Assembly: GCA_005879535.1 (NCBI GenBank)
Contig: VBKI01000091.1
Coordinates: 72,710 to 136,709, forward strand
DNA from: Deltaproteobacteria bacterium
GTDB taxonomy: Bacteria > Myxococcota > Myxococcia > Myxococcales > 40CM-4-68-19
Reading direction: 5' to 3'
DNA length: 64,000 nucleotides
Shown here: piece after piece, positions 37,118 to 44,303 of the stretch
How the letters are laid out: each line of letters starts with the position of its first letter
How positions within the stretch are numbered: position 1 is the stretch's first letter
Position numbers and translations under genes: made by a program
Notes under the pieces: model-generated
What the model was told of the DNA's origin: nothing
The model's database searches: none
The model's input: only the letters and a program-made list of their open reading frames with translations

Positions 37118-37537
37118 TCACGACTTCCGGCTGGTCTCCCGCAACCGCCGGGTGAGCACCTTCATCACCCCCATGGCGATCTCGGGCCGCTCGCCGAGGA
37201 TGTCGCGGAAGTCGTCGCGGCCGATCTTGAGCAGGACGGCGTCCTCGACCGCGGTGACGCTGGCGGAACGAGGCTCCGAATCGAGCACCGCCATCTCGCC
37301 GAACACGTCGCGCTCGCCCAGACGCACCAGCTCCTTGTTGCCCTGGTGCACCTTCACCTTGCCTTCGACGATCAGATAAAGGGCGTCGCCCGGCTCGCCC
37401 TGCGCGAAGACCTGGTCGCCCGCGGCGAGCGGCTGCTCCTCCGCGATCTCGGCGATCTGGGCCAGCTCCTCCGAAGGAAGCGCGCGGAACAGGTCGATGC
37501 TCTTGAGGAAGAGGACCTTTTCGACGGTCGAGATCAC
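37118..37537 (-). CDS. cyclic-nucleotide-binding domain protein
   Basis: The 139-residue protein is a single cNMP-binding fold: LFRALPSEELAQIAEIAEE, GDQVFAQGEPGDALYLIVEG, and the phosphate-binding cassette FGEMAVLDSEPRSASVTA. No DNA-binding domain is attached, so it acts as a stand-alone sensor. Its GTG start overlaps by 4 nt the stop of the transporter-HEAT gene upstream. The two are thus coupled, and this domain probably regulates that transporter in trans. It is convergent with hisS. Confidence 0.85.
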   Translation of the reverse strand: MISTVEKVLFLKSIDLFRALPSEELAQIAEIAEEQPLAAGDQVFAQGEPGDALYLIVEGKVKVHQGNKELVRLGERDVFGEMAVLDSEPRSASVTAVEDAVLLKIGRDDFRDILGERPEIAMGVMKVLTRRLRETSRKS

Positions 37538-40401
37538 GCCGTGGCCCTCGGCGCGACGGGGGCGAGCAGGGCGCGCACGGTCCGCTGGACGGACGGCGCC
37601 GGGTCTGCGGCAAGCTGTGCCAGCAGGCCGGGCGCTTCCGCGGGCGCCACGCGAGCCACCGCCAACGCGGAGGCTTCGCGCAACGGCGCCGAGGGGGCGT
37701 GCAGCGAGGACCGCAGGGCAGGCAGGACGGCGGCGAGCAGCCACGGCGCATCGAGGACCCAGCGCGCGGTGCAGGCTCCCACCCACAGCCCGCACTCGCC
37801 GCGGATCAGCGCGTCGGCGAGCTCGAGGGCGGGGCGCGCATCGGCCAGCACCTGGTCGCCGCGGCGCTTGGTCTCGTCGAGCGTCGCCATCACCTGCCGA
37901 TTCCACGGCTCGGGGAGCGTGTTGTCGAGCACCTCGATGGCGTTCCCCCGCGCTGCTGCGGACTCGGAGCGCAGGTACTCCGCGACGACGTCGAGCCTGA
38001 CGTCGGGCAACAGGACCTGGAGGAGCACCAGCGCCTGGAGCACGCGGGCATCCCGCTCCTCCAGCAACGCCATCGCCAGCAGCTCTCCCGCGCCGCGCGG
38101 CGCGTGTGCGGCCGCGCGCAGGGGTAGCTTCTTGAAGATCGCCAGCGCCGTCCGCGCCGCGGAGAGCTCGGCGTGCGCGGCGCGATCCACCCGCGCGATT
38201 TCGATGCGGATCCCGCGCTGGCGCCGGGTGAGCCGCGCCAGCGAGCGCGCCGCGGCCTTGCGCACCGCCGGCTCCCGGGCGGTGAGGGCGGCGACGAGCG
38301 CGTCCGCAGCTTCGCGCGTGGCCAGTCTCTGCAGTACGAGCGCCACGCCGCGGCGGCAATCGACTTGGGACGCTTCGTCGACGAGGATGCCCTGGAGCGC
38401 GCCTTCGATCCCCGGACCGTAGGCGGCGAGCGCGCCGGCGGCCTCCAGCGCCGTCTCCCGGCGCTGGAACTGCTCGACGATGGCCAGGATCAGCTCCGGA
38501 GCGCGCAGCTTGCCGGCGGCGGCGATCGCCCTGCGCCGGACCGCGTTCTCCGGGTCGCAGAGGAAAACGAGCAGCGGACGGAAGAACCCTCGCACGCCGA
38601 TGTTGCCGAGGGCGTCCGCGGCAGCCGCGCGATCGCGCGGGTCGACGGCCGCCAGAAGCTGGTTGAGCGGCTCGGCGGCGGCCAGCACGCCGTCGATTCC
38701 GGCGTGGCGGATGAGCGCGACGCACGCGGCGGCTCGAACCACGGCCTCGGGCGCGGTACGAACGTCGAGAAAGGGCAGCACGGCGGAAACGGCCGCCTCC
38801 TGCTCGATGGCGCAGACCGCTCCCAGCGCCGCCGCGCGCACCTCCGGAACCGGATCCCGCATCAGCGCGCGCATCTGCGGCAGCGGCTCGGTCGTGCCGA
38901 GCGCGCCGAGCTGCTCGAGAGTCGCGGCCCGCACGGCGGCATCCGGGTGCTGCAGCAATTGCCGCAACTCGGGCGTGAAGTCCGCCGCCTGGGAGAGCTG
39001 CCGCACCAGGGTGACAGCGTGGAGGATGGTCCCCGGGTCGCCGCCCAGCGCCGTGCGCAACGCGCGCAACGTCGCCTCGTTGAGGCCGGAGAACTCCATG
39101 CCGGAGAGATCGAGGTGCCGCCGTTCCAGCGACTCGACGAGGCTGCGGACATACTCGCCGCGGGCGCGCACGAGCAGCCCGATCCAGACCGCGACGAGCA
39201 CCAGTACGGCGGCGGTCAGCGGGCGGCCGCTTCCACCCGAGTGCTTGTAGAGCAGCAGGACCGCCCCGGCGCAGGCCACCGAGCTGGGCTTGAGGACGCC
39301 GTCGATGAACGCTTTCGCACGCCCGCGGACATGCGGCTGCACCGGCACGTACAGGAGCTGCATCGAGGCGTCGTTGATGGTGTAGCGGAAGATGGTATCC
39401 GAGCCTTTCGCGAGCGAGCTGACGAAGAGCCCGGGAGCCGAGAACGCGACGGAAGCGCCCGAGCCGAGCGCGAGCCCGAGCGGCAGAGGCAAGAGCGAGG
39501 CGAGGATCCCGTACCGCTCGAGCACGCGCCCGGTCACCCAGATCTGTACCGCGAGCGCCACACCGCCGCAGATGCCATAGAAGCGGCCGAAGTACCCGGC
39601 GAGGTCGTTCTCGTCCAGCACTGCCGCAGCGGAAAGCTTGAACTGGAAGTCGACGATGGTCACCGCCGCGGCGCTGACCGCTCCGATCAGCGCGACGATC
39701 GTCAGGTGCCTTTGCGAGAGGAAGGAAAGGCCGGCGCGGGAGAGCACTCGTGCCTTCCTCACCGGGCGGGAGCGAAGCGGCAGCGGGGAAGGCGAGGCCA
39801 GCCGCGAGCCTGCCTGGGCCAGAGTCGCGCAGAGAATGAGCTGCGCCACCATCAGGAGCAGCAGGTTCTGCGCCCCGAAGACCTGCGCGTATCGTCCGAT
39901 GAGAAGTCCGAAGATCACGTTCGCAAGCGTCCCGCCGCCGCCGATGAGCCCGAAGAGCCGCTTCGCCTCGCGAGCATGGAAAACGTCGTTGGCCAGCGTC
40001 CAGAACTGGATCACCACCAGCGACCCCATCGCCTCGACGAAGACGTAGAGGCCGGCGTAGACCCAGACGGCGTCGGTGACGGTCAGCACCGCCCAGAAAG
40101 CCGCGCCCAGCGCCGCGCATCCCAGCGCGCTCACGGCGTTGAGCAAACCGCGGCGCATGCGGTCGGCGATCCGCGCGTACAGCCAGGAGACGAGCACGAT
40201 GGCGATCGAGCTCCAGATGTACATCCCGGCGAGGCCGCGGGCGGGGCGATTCGAGAGGTAGAGGGCGTCGCGGACCGAGCGCCCGACCACCACGGCGCCG
40301 ATCGCGTTCGCCGCATACAGCGCCATCAGGGCGACGCGACGCTGCTCCCCCGGGCGGATGCGCAGGCCGGCTTCGAGCGCACGTTCGATCCTGCCTGCCA
40401 T
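37534..40401 (-). CDS. ATP/ADP translocase-like (NTT/Npt) membrane transporter fused to HEAT repeats
   Basis: The 955-residue product has about 12 membrane spans in its first half, beginning ALMALYAANAIGAVVVGRSV and SVRDALYLSNRPARG. The RDALYLS segment is typical of the TLC/Npt nucleotide-transporter family. The second half, from about residue 440, is a solenoid of HEAT repeats such as HPDAAVRAATLEQLGALG and DPVPEVRAAALGAVCAI. Free-living bacterial relatives with this fusion are known, but their substrate is unclear; ATP/ADP exchange is not implied. I start at ATG 40401, because GAGAG lies upstream; GTG 40419 adds six codons. It is immediately followed by the cNMP-binding gene (4-nt overlap). 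Confidence 0.78.
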   Translation of the reverse strand: MAGRIERALEAGLRIRPGEQRRVALMALYAANAIGAVVVGRSVRDALYLSNRPARGLAGMYIWSSIAIVLVSWLYARIADRMRRGLLNAVSALGCAALGAAFWAVLTVTDAVWVYAGLYVFVEAMGSLVVIQFWTLANDVFHAREAKRLFGLIGGGGTLANVIFGLLIGRYAQVFGAQNLLLLMVAQLILCATLAQAGSRLASPSPLPLRSRPVRKARVLSRAGLSFLSQRHLTIVALIGAVSAAAVTIVDFQFKLSAAAVLDENDLAGYFGRFYGICGGVALAVQIWVTGRVLERYGILASLLPLPLGLALGSGASVAFSAPGLFVSSLAKGSDTIFRYTINDASMQLLYVPVQPHVRGRAKAFIDGVLKPSSVACAGAVLLLYKHSGGSGRPLTAAVLVLVAVWIGLLVRARGEYVRSLVESLERRHLDLSGMEFSGLNEATLRALRTALGGDPGTILHAVTLVRQLSQAADFTPELRQLLQHPDAAVRAATLEQLGALGTTEPLPQMRALMRDPVPEVRAAALGAVCAIEQEAAVSAVLPFLDVRTAPEAVVRAAACVALIRHAGIDGVLAAAEPLNQLLAAVDPRDRAAAADALGNIGVRGFFRPLLVFLCDPENAVRRRAIAAAGKLRAPELILAIVEQFQRRETALEAAGALAAYGPGIEGALQGILVDEASQVDCRRGVALVLQRLATREAADALVAALTAREPAVRKAAARSLARLTRRQRGIRIEIARVDRAAHAELSAARTALAIFKKLPLRAAAHAPRGAGELLAMALLEERDARVLQALVLLQVLLPDVRLDVVAEYLRSESAAARGNAIEVLDNTLPEPWNRQVMATLDETKRRGDQVLADARPALELADALIRGECGLWVGACTARWVLDAPWLLAAVLPALRSSLHAPSAPLREASALAVARVAPAEAPGLLAQLAADPAPSVQRTVRALLAPVAPRATA

Positions 40402-40490
40402 CTGCTCTCGAGAGTACACGCCGCGCGCCGGAGCGCGCCAGGAACTGACGCCGCCGGATGTCTACGCTTCTCCCACCCGTGGAGCGGGCG

Positions 40491-43373
40491 TCAGAACACG
40501 CCGCCGAGCGCGGCGTAGCAGTCGAGGATCGCGACCGGTCCCGACTCCAGCCCTCTCGCGCACCCGAAGCGCAGATCGGTCGGCAGGATCCAGCCGAGCA
40601 CGACCTCGGCGCGCAGCTCCGCGCCGGCGCCGGTGTGGAGGTGGAAGTCGTGTCGCGAGAACGTGAACGCGTCGCCGACATCGGCAAAGACCGCGGCGTG
40701 CAGGCGGCGGAGGTAGACGGGCAGGGTCCACGCTCCGGTCTCGACGTCAAAGAGGGGAAAGCGGTACTCCGCGGTCCCCAGCGCATAAGCGGTGCCGTGA
40801 AAGGAGTCTCGCGCGAAACCTCGAAGGCGCGGCGTCCCAGCCGCCGGGTTGAGGACGCTCCGTACCAGATCCCCCTGCTGGAAGCCGCCGAGGAAGAAAT
40901 CGTGCCGGTTCGACAGATCCCCGTTCGAGACACCGAACGAGCCGCGCAGGGCCAGCGCATGGTGCCAGGGAACGCCGCGCGTGCTCCAGGGCAGGGCGAA
41001 GAACTTCGATGCGGACGTCGTCGCCTGCCAGAACGAGAACTGGCTTCCGAGAGCAGGGTCGGAAAGACGCAGGGAGAGGGCGAATCGCTGGCCGCGCTCG
41101 CTGGAGATGCTGCGGACGAAGCGCCTCACGTCGGACCACGAGTACGTCAGCGTCGCCGCGGCGAGCAGCCCCGGCGACGTGGGAACGCCGAGCGGATTGG
41201 TGTCGACGGCCAGGTTCTCCAGCTCGTACGTGAGCGAGAGCGACTGCGAGCGTTCCACCTCTGAGAACGGGAACGAAGCGGTGATCGAGCCGCCGATGGA
41301 TCGCTCGAAGTAGTAGCCCGGCGCATCCAGTCCGCCGGCTGCCTGCGGCGCGCCGAGGTCCCGGGTGAACTCCAGCGTCAGGTCGGGATAGAGCGAGTGA
41401 TTGACGTAGATGAGGTCAAATCCCGGCTCCTTCCCGTAGATGCTCCACCAGGCGGTGGCGGCGTATTCGTGCCGGTCCACGGCGTCGAATCCCGCCGTCA
41501 GCGCCCCCACCGTCGTTCCGTATCCGTCGGCCGCCGCGTACGGGAGCCAGAAATGCGGCCTCAGCGTTTCCCAGGGCGAGTAGGGCCGCGTCGGATAGAT
41601 CTCCTCCTGCGGCACCGCCGTGACCGGCGGACGCTGCTCGGCCAGCGGCGCCGCCGTGACCGGGCGCCAGGAGTCGGGCTCGAGCGGCATGCGTCCGACG
41701 TCGTATCCGCGCGAGCTGTAGGTCACGAGCGCGAGCTGCGTTCCGTCCGGCGAGGGATCGGGCTCGAAGGCCCCCAGCACGACGTTCGTGACCTGGCGCA
41801 GATCGCCCGGCCTCCACGCGTACAAGTTGTAGACGCCATTGCGATCGCTGCTGAACAGGAGCCAGCGCCCGTCGCGCGTCCAGGCGGGGTCGCGGTCCAG
41901 CGCCCGATCCCGGGTGACGTCGGTGACCGCGAGCGAGGCGCGGTCGACGATGCGCACGTCCCAGGCGCCGTCGCGGTGGTGCAGAAACGCGACCCGCGCG
42001 CCGTCGGGCGAGTAGCGCGGGCTGTCCACCGGCTCGGCGTGCGGGTCCTCGAAGAGGACCCGGGGACCTTCGGCCCGCAGCTCCGCGATCGCCGTCCTTC
42101 CCCCGCTGCGCCTCCAGACGAATGCGATGTTGCCGTCGCGCGAAACGTCGGGGCTCCGCGCGCGCAGACCGCGGCTCAACCTGCGCTCGTCGCCGGTACG
42201 CGGATCGACGGAGTAGAGGTCCTGGAGGATCTCGAACTCCTGGAATACCTGCGCACGCGCGTACACGACGCGCCCGTCCGGGCCCACCGCGAGCGTCGAG
42301 TCCCCCGAACCATCCGACCAGAGATTCCCGACGTGCCGGTCGCCGGGACGGGTCGACTCCGTCATGGGAACAGGCGGTCCGCAACACTTGTCCGGACGGA
42401 CCGCGCGGATCTCCGCCAGCCGATCCGGCCCGGCGTTCGTGTAGTACAGCGTCGACGCGTCGGGGCTCCAACGCGGTGTGCGGACCCATTCCCCGAGCCG
42501 CGTGAGCGGCTCGATGGCCGTGGGCCCCGACGCGCCGACCTGCGCCTGCAGTCGAGATGCGCGCCGCAGCTCCTCCGCCGCGAACTGGTCGTAGAGCTGG
42601 AGATAGGTCGGTCCCAGCACCCGCTCGGCGCTGAAGTTCATCGCGAAGGGGACGGGCCGCGATCCGAAATCGTGCGACAGGTCCCGCAGCGCGCCGAGGC
42701 CGTATTCGTTCCCGATGAAGGAGAGGAAGCGCGATCCGACGGTGTACTGGCCGAAGCCGCGCGGCCATTCGAGCGGAAGGTTGGAGAGCGTGTCGATCCG
42801 CGGAAGCTTGCCCTCCAGGACCTCGGCGCGCAGCACCATGTCCTCTTCCGACGCGCGCACGCGTCCCGCCGCGCTCACCTCGCTCTCGGCGAAGGTGGCC
42901 ATGCCCTCGATGAACCAGATCGGCTGTCCGCCGTTGGTGATCCACAGCTTGCCGAAGACGTCATTCACCGCCTGCGGAAGGCCGAGCACGGTGTCGAGGT
43001 GGAGGATGTGCGTGTATTCGTGCGAGATCAGCTCGTAGACGTTGTCGTCGAAGTCGGCGAGCGTGCTGCGCGCGTCCGGGGGCGGAGCATAGGCGTGGAT
43101 CAGGTTGTAGAGGATGGGGCTGGCGCTGCCGTTGGCGAAGTCGGTGTCGTCCTGCACCACGATATGCGTCCGTCCGTCCGGAACATGGTCCAGAAGCGGA
43201 ACCAGGCGCTGGTACGAAAGCTCCGCGGCCCGCGCGACCCGCTGCGCGTACCGGTACGTTCCCTGGTGGTAGTGGACCTCGAAATGGGGTGTGTCGAGCG
43301 TCTCCCAGACGAACCGCGGGTCCAGCGCGACCGCCGGCAGACCCGCGAGCAAGAGGAGCGCGAACAGCCGCAT
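40491..43373 (-). CDS. secreted HEYTH metallopeptidase-beta-propeller-outer-membrane barrel protein
   Basis: This 960-residue protein has a short signal (LFALLLLAGLPAVA). A gluzincin-like domain follows, with HEYTHILHLD near 115 and WFIEGMATFAES near 153, giving the His-His-Glu zinc pattern. A TolB/PD40-type propeller follows (about 290-590; blades WSPDASTLYYTNAG, PRYSPDGARVAFLHH, PSPDGTQLALVT). The C-terminal about 330 residues have alternating aromatic/hydrophobic strands ending in LGGVF, as in BamA/surface-antigen barrels. It may be a cell-surface protease or sensor. The gene for the alpha/beta hydrolase lies directly before it with no gap. Confidence 0.82.
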   Translation of the reverse strand: MRLFALLLLAGLPAVALDPRFVWETLDTPHFEVHYHQGTYRYAQRVARAAELSYQRLVPLLDHVPDGRTHIVVQDDTDFANGSASPILYNLIHAYAPPPDARSTLADFDDNVYELISHEYTHILHLDTVLGLPQAVNDVFGKLWITNGGQPIWFIEGMATFAESEVSAAGRVRASEEDMVLRAEVLEGKLPRIDTLSNLPLEWPRGFGQYTVGSRFLSFIGNEYGLGALRDLSHDFGSRPVPFAMNFSAERVLGPTYLQLYDQFAAEELRRASRLQAQVGASGPTAIEPLTRLGEWVRTPRWSPDASTLYYTNAGPDRLAEIRAVRPDKCCGPPVPMTESTRPGDRHVGNLWSDGSGDSTLAVGPDGRVVYARAQVFQEFEILQDLYSVDPRTGDERRLSRGLRARSPDVSRDGNIAFVWRRSGGRTAIAELRAEGPRVLFEDPHAEPVDSPRYSPDGARVAFLHHRDGAWDVRIVDRASLAVTDVTRDRALDRDPAWTRDGRWLLFSSDRNGVYNLYAWRPGDLRQVTNVVLGAFEPDPSPDGTQLALVTYSSRGYDVGRMPLEPDSWRPVTAAPLAEQRPPVTAVPQEEIYPTRPYSPWETLRPHFWLPYAAADGYGTTVGALTAGFDAVDRHEYAATAWWSIYGKEPGFDLIYVNHSLYPDLTLEFTRDLGAPQAAGGLDAPGYYFERSIGGSITASFPFSEVERSQSLSLTYELENLAVDTNPLGVPTSPGLLAAATLTYSWSDVRRFVRSISSERGQRFALSLRLSDPALGSQFSFWQATTSASKFFALPWSTRGVPWHHALALRGSFGVSNGDLSNRHDFFLGGFQQGDLVRSVLNPAAGTPRLRGFARDSFHGTAYALGTAEYRFPLFDVETGAWTLPVYLRRLHAAVFADVGDAFTFSRHDFHLHTGAGAELRAEVVLGWILPTDLRFGCARGLESGPVAILDCYAALGGVF

Positions 43374-44303
43374 TCAGCCAGTGCGCCGCGCCGTCGAGGA
43401 TCCGCGCGCGGGAATGCTGGCCAGGAACTTCTCCAGCCGAAGCGCGATCAGCTCGGGATGCTCGATGGGGGCCACATGCGTCCCGCCCGGCACCGTCAGG
43501 AGCTCCGCGCCCGGAATGCGCGACCGCATCTCCTCGCTGAGCCAGTAAGGCGTGAACGTGTCGTCGGTCCCGGCGACGATCAGCGTGGGGGCGCTCACAT
43601 GCGGCAAGTGATCGAACGCGGTGTGCTCGCTCGCGTGCTTCAGCATCCCCAGGAAGAGCTGGGGATCCATCCCGGCGAGATGCCGGAAGTAGGGAAGGAA
43701 ATCGTCGCGGCGCACCAGCCGGCCGTTCACCTCGAAATGCGTGGCGATCTGGTAGGCGAGCTCCCCGCTCGCGGCCAGGCGCCAGATGAGGCTCATGGCC
43801 TGGGGGTACTTTCCCGCGGCCACGATCATCGACGGCAGCAGGATCTTCAGCGCTTTGCTGTCGTGAAAGGTATCCAGAGGCAATCCGTACGAGCCGCAGA
43901 TCAGGACCAGGCCCAGGACCTGATCGGGCCGGCGGCGGTGGTGCTCGAGCGCGACTTGCACGCCCATCGAGTGGCCGAGCAGCACCGCCTGCGAGGTCCG
44001 CGTCGCTTGCAGGACGCTCTCCAGATCGGAGGAAATGTCGTCGAAGCCGACTCGGGTGGAATCACGCGGGACACCGCTGCGCCCGTGGCCGCGGTAGTGC
44101 CAGTGGACGATCCGGTGTCGCGCGGCGAAATCGCGCAGGACGTATTTCCAGGCGAATCCGTCGCAGCCGATCCCGTCGCAGCAGACGAGCGCCGGAGCGC
44201 CGTTCCCGACCGCCGACCAGTGGATTCGCGTGCCGTCGCGGCCCTCGGCGAATCCCGTTTCGACCCCTTGCAGCTCCGCCTGCATGCCGGAATGGTAGCG
44301 CAT
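43374..44303 (-). CDS. alpha/beta hydrolase
   Basis: The 309-residue protein has the fold's oxyanion region CCDGIGCDGFAWKYVLRDF and HYRGHGRSGVPRD, the nucleophile elbow LLGHSMGVQVALEHH (Ser), an acid in VAGTDDTFTPYWLSEEM, and a catalytic His in GGTHVAPIEHPE. It is a single-domain cytosolic esterase/lipase or C-C hydrolase. The substrate is unknown. ATG 44303 is used; ATG 44285 is an equally good start and would skip six residues without similarity. Its TGA directly abuts the start of the protease-propeller gene, so the two are probably an operon. Confidence 0.86.
   Translation of the reverse strand: MRYHSGMQAELQGVETGFAEGRDGTRIHWSAVGNGAPALVCCDGIGCDGFAWKYVLRDFAARHRIVHWHYRGHGRSGVPRDSTRVGFDDISSDLESVLQATRTSQAVLLGHSMGVQVALEHHRRRPDQVLGLVLICGSYGLPLDTFHDSKALKILLPSMIVAAGKYPQAMSLIWRLAASGELAYQIATHFEVNGRLVRRDDFLPYFRHLAGMDPQLFLGMLKHASEHTAFDHLPHVSAPTLIVAGTDDTFTPYWLSEEMRSRIPGAELLTVPGGTHVAPIEHPELIALRLEKFLASIPARGSSTARRTG

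Follow-up and report, generated by a model that had tools for sequence, protein, structure and literature searches.

Fusions of a nucleotide transporter (NTT) domain with HEAT repeats have been reported, among them three-domain NTT-HEAT-cNBD proteins that also carry a cyclic-nucleotide-binding domain, and some NTT-HEAT genes are directly followed, several nucleotides away, by a cNBD gene (Major, Embley and Williams, 2017, PMC5381601). In the passages of that paper that deal with them, NTT-HEAT proteins are described as widespread, including in Chlamydiaceae and oomycetes, and as having undergone several fusions and fissions; HEAT parts are noted as usually binding proteins, and the cNBD is proposed to bind cyclic AMP (cAMP) and to adjust ATP uptake. 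We describe here a locus of this type from a bacterium of the Myxococcales (assembly GCA_005879535.1, contig VBKI01000091.1), in which a gene for an NTT-HEAT protein overlaps a gene for a lone cyclic-nucleotide-binding (CNB) protein; the window is the whole stretch of 64,000 nucleotides that was analysed. The best explanation, in which we place moderate confidence, is that the pair represents a two-gene, two-subunit form of NTT-HEAT-cNBD, i.e., a transporter controlled by a cyclic nucleotide (cNMP) that would dock its CNB subunit on the HEAT part and have a link to the cell envelope.

Neither the two architectures, split and fused, nor the hypothesis of cAMP control is new; all were published in 2017. 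What is added here is the one-to-one co-occurrence of the two proteins, a contrast in the ligand cassette between split and fused lineages, changed nucleotide-site residues and a recurrent outer-membrane neighbour. The word stem "Myxococc-" is absent from the main text of Major et al., and its NTT-HEAT passages mention neither Omp85/TolB-propeller, DUF1571, ROK or HD neighbours nor a difference between split and fused cassettes. Beyond that paper, we did not find functional or structural work on NTT-HEAT in the open-licence literature; the term occurs in a review on diatoms (PMC6995639).

An NTT-type membrane domain fused to a HEAT solenoid

The NTT-HEAT protein (961 amino acids, GTG start, positions 37534..40419, minus strand) was delimited by its open reading frame, Pfam matches and a structural model; an in-frame ATG at 40401 is an alternative start, which had been used in an earlier note on this DNA. 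That note had described a translocase-like membrane domain and a long HEAT solenoid within one protein, and on this point the Pfam matches, the model and the fold search agree. TLC (PF03219) scored 48.6 bits against a cut-off of 21, and HEAT_2 (PF13646) scored 86.3 bits, above its cut-off. The AlphaFold2 model, built from 26 aligned relatives, has a mean predicted local distance difference test score (pLDDT) of 87 and a predicted template modelling score of 0.75, and it consists of a membrane domain of twelve long helices (residues ~10-433) followed by helical repeats that form the HEAT solenoid (residues ~448-952).

Among solved structures, the model comes closest to two ATP/ADP translocators, AtNTT1 and C. 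pneumoniae NTT1 (CpNTT1; Foldseek E 2.5e-9). The top VIA-align match was AtNTT1 (9j3m chain A; Z 40.7, root-mean-square deviation 3.0, 411 aligned residues), while the best chain from outside the NTT family, LacY, reached Z 31.4. Since the AtNTT1 and CpNTT1 matches rank far above LacY, the membrane domain is of NTT type, and the large protein is an inner-membrane member of the NTT branch of the major facilitator superfamily fold. It shares with AtNTT1 and CpNTT1 (PDB 9j3j/l/m and 9j3n/o) the 12-helix fold over ~410 residues (Z 31 to 41), but these transporters possess neither HEAT nor CNB parts and are 17-18% identical to it. Its fold and family suggest that the NTT-HEAT protein acts as a transporter. 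In the source genome, this protein is the single TLC match at E <= 0.001.

A free-standing CNB protein with a conserved ligand cassette

As the earlier note had stated, with correct coordinates, the downstream gene overlaps the NTT-HEAT gene by 4 nucleotides and encodes a CNB domain alone: in the sequence GTGA, the GTG start of the CNB gene lies on the NTT-HEAT stop codon, and in the CNB protein (139 amino acids, 37118..37537, minus strand) cNMP_binding (PF00027; 82.3 bits against a cut-off of 27.5) is the sole Pfam domain above cut-off. The order of parts, i.e., NTT (TLC) domain, C-terminal HEAT and a cNBD encoded downstream with a 4-nucleotide overlap, matches that of NTT-HEAT-cNBD as described in the passages of Major et al. 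(2017). The cassette FGEMAVLDSEPRSASV aligns to the phosphate-binding cassette of cGMP-dependent protein kinase (PKG). The sequence matches of the whole protein include PKG (E 4.7e-38), PKA RI-alpha (2e-26) and MloK1 (2.3e-15). The protein shares the Gly-Glu...Arg-Ser/Thr-Ala cassette with the CNB domains of PKG, the PKA regulatory subunit, CRP and MloK1; unlike these, it stands free beside a transporter-like gene, without a kinase, DNA-binding or channel part.

Among 79 loci from named genomes, Gly-Glu and Arg-Ser-Ala are kept in 58 of 61 parsed CNB copies, so that the cNMP ligand site postulated in the earlier note appears to be retained at the sequence level. One of the remaining three copies has Arg-Met-Ala, and two, from a rumen bacterium and Poribacteria (L153 and L154), are devoid of the cassette Arg. 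Four CNB matches were left unparsed: L110 and L134 are cut at the locus end, and L139 and the second CNB of L138 show RSA by eye. The source genome contains 18 CNB-domain matches, the lone CNB protein among them, and six class III cyclase domains, which makes a source of the cNMP ligand plausible. At another place in this genome, a class III cyclase domain (C50:80661-81209) and a CNB domain (C50:81570-81824) lie less than 400 bases apart on the same strand.

Co-occurrence and linkage of the two genes

Some match to the 961-residue protein was found in 46 of 60 related genomes, and a match at E <= 1e-80, by which we define the split lineage, in 19. At E <= 1e-30 the small protein was present in 20 genomes, namely the 19 of the split lineage and G032, where one contig carries the CNB gene next to a fragment of NTT-HEAT. 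At these thresholds all 19 carriers of NTT-HEAT also have the CNB protein, and 40 of the 60 relatives have neither; the relatives are not mutually independent, and the Fisher value of this co-occurrence is therefore only a guide. In G028 (69% complete) a partial large protein ends at a contig end and the small protein was not found. Wherever the positions were read, the small gene adjoins the large one; in G018 its orientation is inverted.

Because the scan of named genomes relied on patterns from the split lineage (80 of 92 confirmed places were retained), the proportion of split pairs in it is no census. Among the 79 loci, the CNB gene is adjacent on the same strand in 52 and adjacent but inverted in one (L124), and four are fused; in the others it lies farther downstream (6), is absent from the flank (13) or would fall beyond a contig end (3). 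Eight loci without a linked CNB gene (L106, L107, L118, L126, L129, L131, L135 and L150), presumably all from Myxococcota, have a 54-61% identical CNB elsewhere in the genome, which in L118 and L131 lies, by its coordinates, just beyond the fetched flank. Hence, the pair singled out in the earlier note is conserved, and its occurrence in many genomes argues that the gene arrangement is not due to chance. NTT-HEAT loci were found in Myxococcota, UBP6 rumen bacteria, Neomarinimicrobiota (fused), Poribacteria, Balneolota and Rhodothermota. Moreover, the CNB protein is more conserved than NTT-HEAT in all eight distant genomes compared (53-71% versus 36-52% identity; G012, G013, G015, G018, G019, G024, G049 and G052), as in G052 with 59% versus 38%. 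In L025, two neighbouring genes share one frame.

Split and fused lineages

A fused NTT-HEAT-CNB lineage exists within the same order (loci L032-L054 and L173-L184). In a tree of 57 NTT-HEAT rows, this lineage forms one deep group separate from the split lineage (support 100), and the fusion in Neomarinimicrobiota forms an additional separate group (support 100); the tree is midpoint-rooted, without a canonical NTT outgroup, and four pairs of its rows stem from identical or closely similar genomes. Its rows comprise at most two per group from the 79 loci, with matches shorter than 700 residues dropped, together with 19 hand-picked ones.

The two lineages of the order differ in the CNB cassette. 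Among 18 distinct fused copies, the Arg is followed by Pro in 16 (15 by pattern and L043 by eye; L033 and L055 denote a single gene), by Leu and Ile in one copy each, and by Ser, Ala or Thr in none, whereas all four fused proteins of Neomarinimicrobiota show Arg-Ser-Ala. The residue that follows the cassette Arg matters for ligand contacts. Given this, the contrast of Arg-Ser-Ala in the split lineage with Arg-Pro, Arg-Leu or Arg-Ile in the fused one suggests that ligand binding, and with it sensing, probably differs between the two. Perhaps the substrate differs too; in the membrane domain of the fused proteins of this order, the R50-D51 pair is likewise missing.

Possible mechanism and alternative explanations

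We propose that the cytosolic HEAT solenoid could serve as a docking surface for the CNB protein, since the two are obligately linked and fused versions exist, and that, once occupied by cAMP or cGMP, the CNB protein would alter this dock and hence transport, in either direction. In the lineage of the source genome, an upstream gene encodes an outer-membrane TolB-propeller/Omp85 protein with which the pair may work. The separate, small and soluble sensor makes this the easiest form of NTT-HEAT to test, because it can be titrated, added or removed. Two specific hypotheses go beyond the passages of Major et al.: a role in the envelope, and a fused lineage in which cNMP sensing may have been lost or changed.

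Several observations weigh against a cNMP-controlled transporter of the NTT type. The NCBIfam model TIGR00769 (NTP/NDP exchanger) scored 50.8 bits and did not reach its cut-off of 387.2. NTT-HEAT proteins of Balneolota and Rhodothermota have no linked CNB gene, and the four genomes of these phyla that were searched gave weak CNB matches only. A HEAT motif close to the C-terminus that is near invariant in the split lineage (R824, A827, E829 and D832) was considered as a signature of CNB docking and was rejected, as it is largely kept in precisely these proteins without a linked CNB. Moreover, residues that bind nucleotides in AtNTT1 appear changed. AtNTT1 requires K155 to bind ADP, K527 to bind ATP and E245 to translocate; its K155R variant does not bind ADP (PMC3306366). 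In our alignment K527 is not conserved, its counterpart, position 381, being non-basic. K155 falls outside the significant alignment; a weak segment (4.6 bits) sets Arg50 of RSVRD opposite the Lys of the CpNTT1 motif RDTKD, in which we presume K155 of AtNTT1 to lie. By this weak alignment K155 appears to be replaced by Arg, the very change that abolishes ADP binding in AtNTT1.

Other charged residues of the membrane domain are strictly kept. In 26 split-lineage loci, from which broken or partial copies (e.g., L017, L020 and L031) and near copies (L011 and L012) were excluded, E129, D257, K261 and K369 inside the helix bundle are invariant (26/26), and a basic residue (K377 or Arg) stands four positions before position 381 in all 26. 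E129 aligns to E245 of AtNTT1, so that this acidic residue is conserved between the two proteins; D257 is the counterpart of E385, a further charged position of AtNTT1. The numbering of the AtNTT1 chain was derived from an offset of 84, which fits E245, E385 and K527 jointly. The loss of K527 and the apparent Arg at K155 make simple ATP/ADP exchange doubtful. The translocase-like features described in the earlier note are borne out by the NTT fold; an ATP/ADP substrate is weakened. Judging from the changed key residues, the protein probably does not exchange ATP for ADP in the manner of the plastid and chlamydial carriers, and it probably takes a small anionic solute instead.

The same residues bear on the alternatives. 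If the membrane domain were an anchor or receptor without transport, HEAT and CNB would together form a second-messenger-controlled scaffold, e.g., of the envelope. Of the four charged NTT positions, two appear altered, the neighbouring genes encode Omp85/TolB-propeller, second HEAT and HD-domain proteins as well as, in a single group, a Ser/Thr kinase, and the protein-binding habit of HEAT parts described in the passages of Major et al. (2017, PMC5381601) would suit such a scaffold. A mere anchor, however, would need neither the four invariant charged residues nor the basic residue at 377, and we regard this explanation as rather unlikely. A true ATP/ADP (or NTP) translocase under cAMP control, in which nucleotide uptake or release is tuned to the energy state, as proposed in the passages of Major et al. 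(PMC5381601), would accord with the NTT fold and family and with the conservation of E245 as E129. We nevertheless consider it quite improbable: K527 is lost and K155 apparently carries the substitution that prevents ADP binding in AtNTT1. Free-living bacteria that run an energy metabolism of their own would have little obvious reason to import ATP, which also counts against it. Finally, the CNB protein might act elsewhere, e.g., on another enzyme, and merely be co-transcribed with the large gene. The eight relatives that keep CNB unlinked within the flank and the inverted CNB gene in G018/L124 would fit this idea, which we find very improbable given the exceptionless co-occurrence in the 60 relatives and the fact that these two parts became fused independently in Neomarinimicrobiota.

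Gene neighbourhood of the pair

A gene for an Omp85/TolB-propeller protein (960 amino acids, 40491..43373, minus strand; PD40 and Omp85 domains) lies 71 nucleotides upstream of the NTT-HEAT GTG, and the two likely form one transcription unit. The model of this protein (mean pLDDT 72) shows a helical N-terminal domain with the motif HEYTH, a propeller and a barrel, and its matches are TolB and BamA; the HEYTH motif is metalloprotease-like. The Omp85 gene is abutted by an alpha/beta hydrolase gene (43374..44303, minus strand), whose preceding position is kept in four groups of relatives. Downstream of the pair, genes for histidyl-tRNA synthetase and phosphatidylserine decarboxylase run in the convergent direction.

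Neighbourhoods were compared in 99 loci, which fall into 36 groups when sorted on how identical their large proteins are, with duplicate genes sharing a group; the counts are lower bounds, as flanks too short for such genes were not tallied. At least 11 of the 36 groups have a homologue of the window's Omp85/propeller gene upstream in the same orientation; in six it is the immediate neighbour (g0, g2, g14, g21, g27 and g32), and in five it is found within ~4 kb (g16, g20, g22, g26 and g29). DUF1571 (LolA/MucB-like) and ROK kinase genes stand behind the large gene in at least seven groups, before the CNB gene where the locus extends that far. In at least five groups, genes for another HEAT protein and for an HD-domain protein come after the CNB gene. 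In Balneolota and Rhodothermota, another Omp85 protein is encoded close by in five of six loci (called by Pfam for L166, L168 and L171, and by BLAST cluster for L169 and L170).

The recurrence of Omp85 neighbours suggests a role of the pair in the envelope. As a speculative and unlikely extension, the NTT-fold transporter, licensed by cNMP through its HEAT arm, might pass an anionic or lipid-like substrate to the TolB-propeller/Omp85 protein, with DUF1571 as a periplasmic carrier in some lineages; were this so, envelope traffic would answer to cAMP or cGMP. As a universal partner, Omp85 was rejected: the homologue of the window's Omp85 protein was not found near any of 13 fused-lineage loci (L173-L185), and in G017 and G033 the homologue lies far from the NTT-HEAT gene.

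Further arrangements were observed in single groups of loci. An operon of NTT-HEAT (often two in tandem), DUF1571 and ROK genes occurs in L118, L120, L126, L127, L128, L131 and L134. In Archangium-type loci, a second HEAT protein (L105 8365-11496 and relatives) and an HD_5 protein are encoded directly behind CNB. A protein of ~600 amino acids without a Pfam match is likewise encoded near NTT-HEAT in L166, L168, L169, L170 and L171 (L171 2858-4810). A kinase combined with a cyclase was also considered as a neighbour and rejected, since most kinase matches are generic and the kinase of L162 has a PEGA domain and no cyclase; this Ser/Thr kinase with PEGA (L162 8422-10395) is encoded directly behind the NTT-HEAT/CNB pair.

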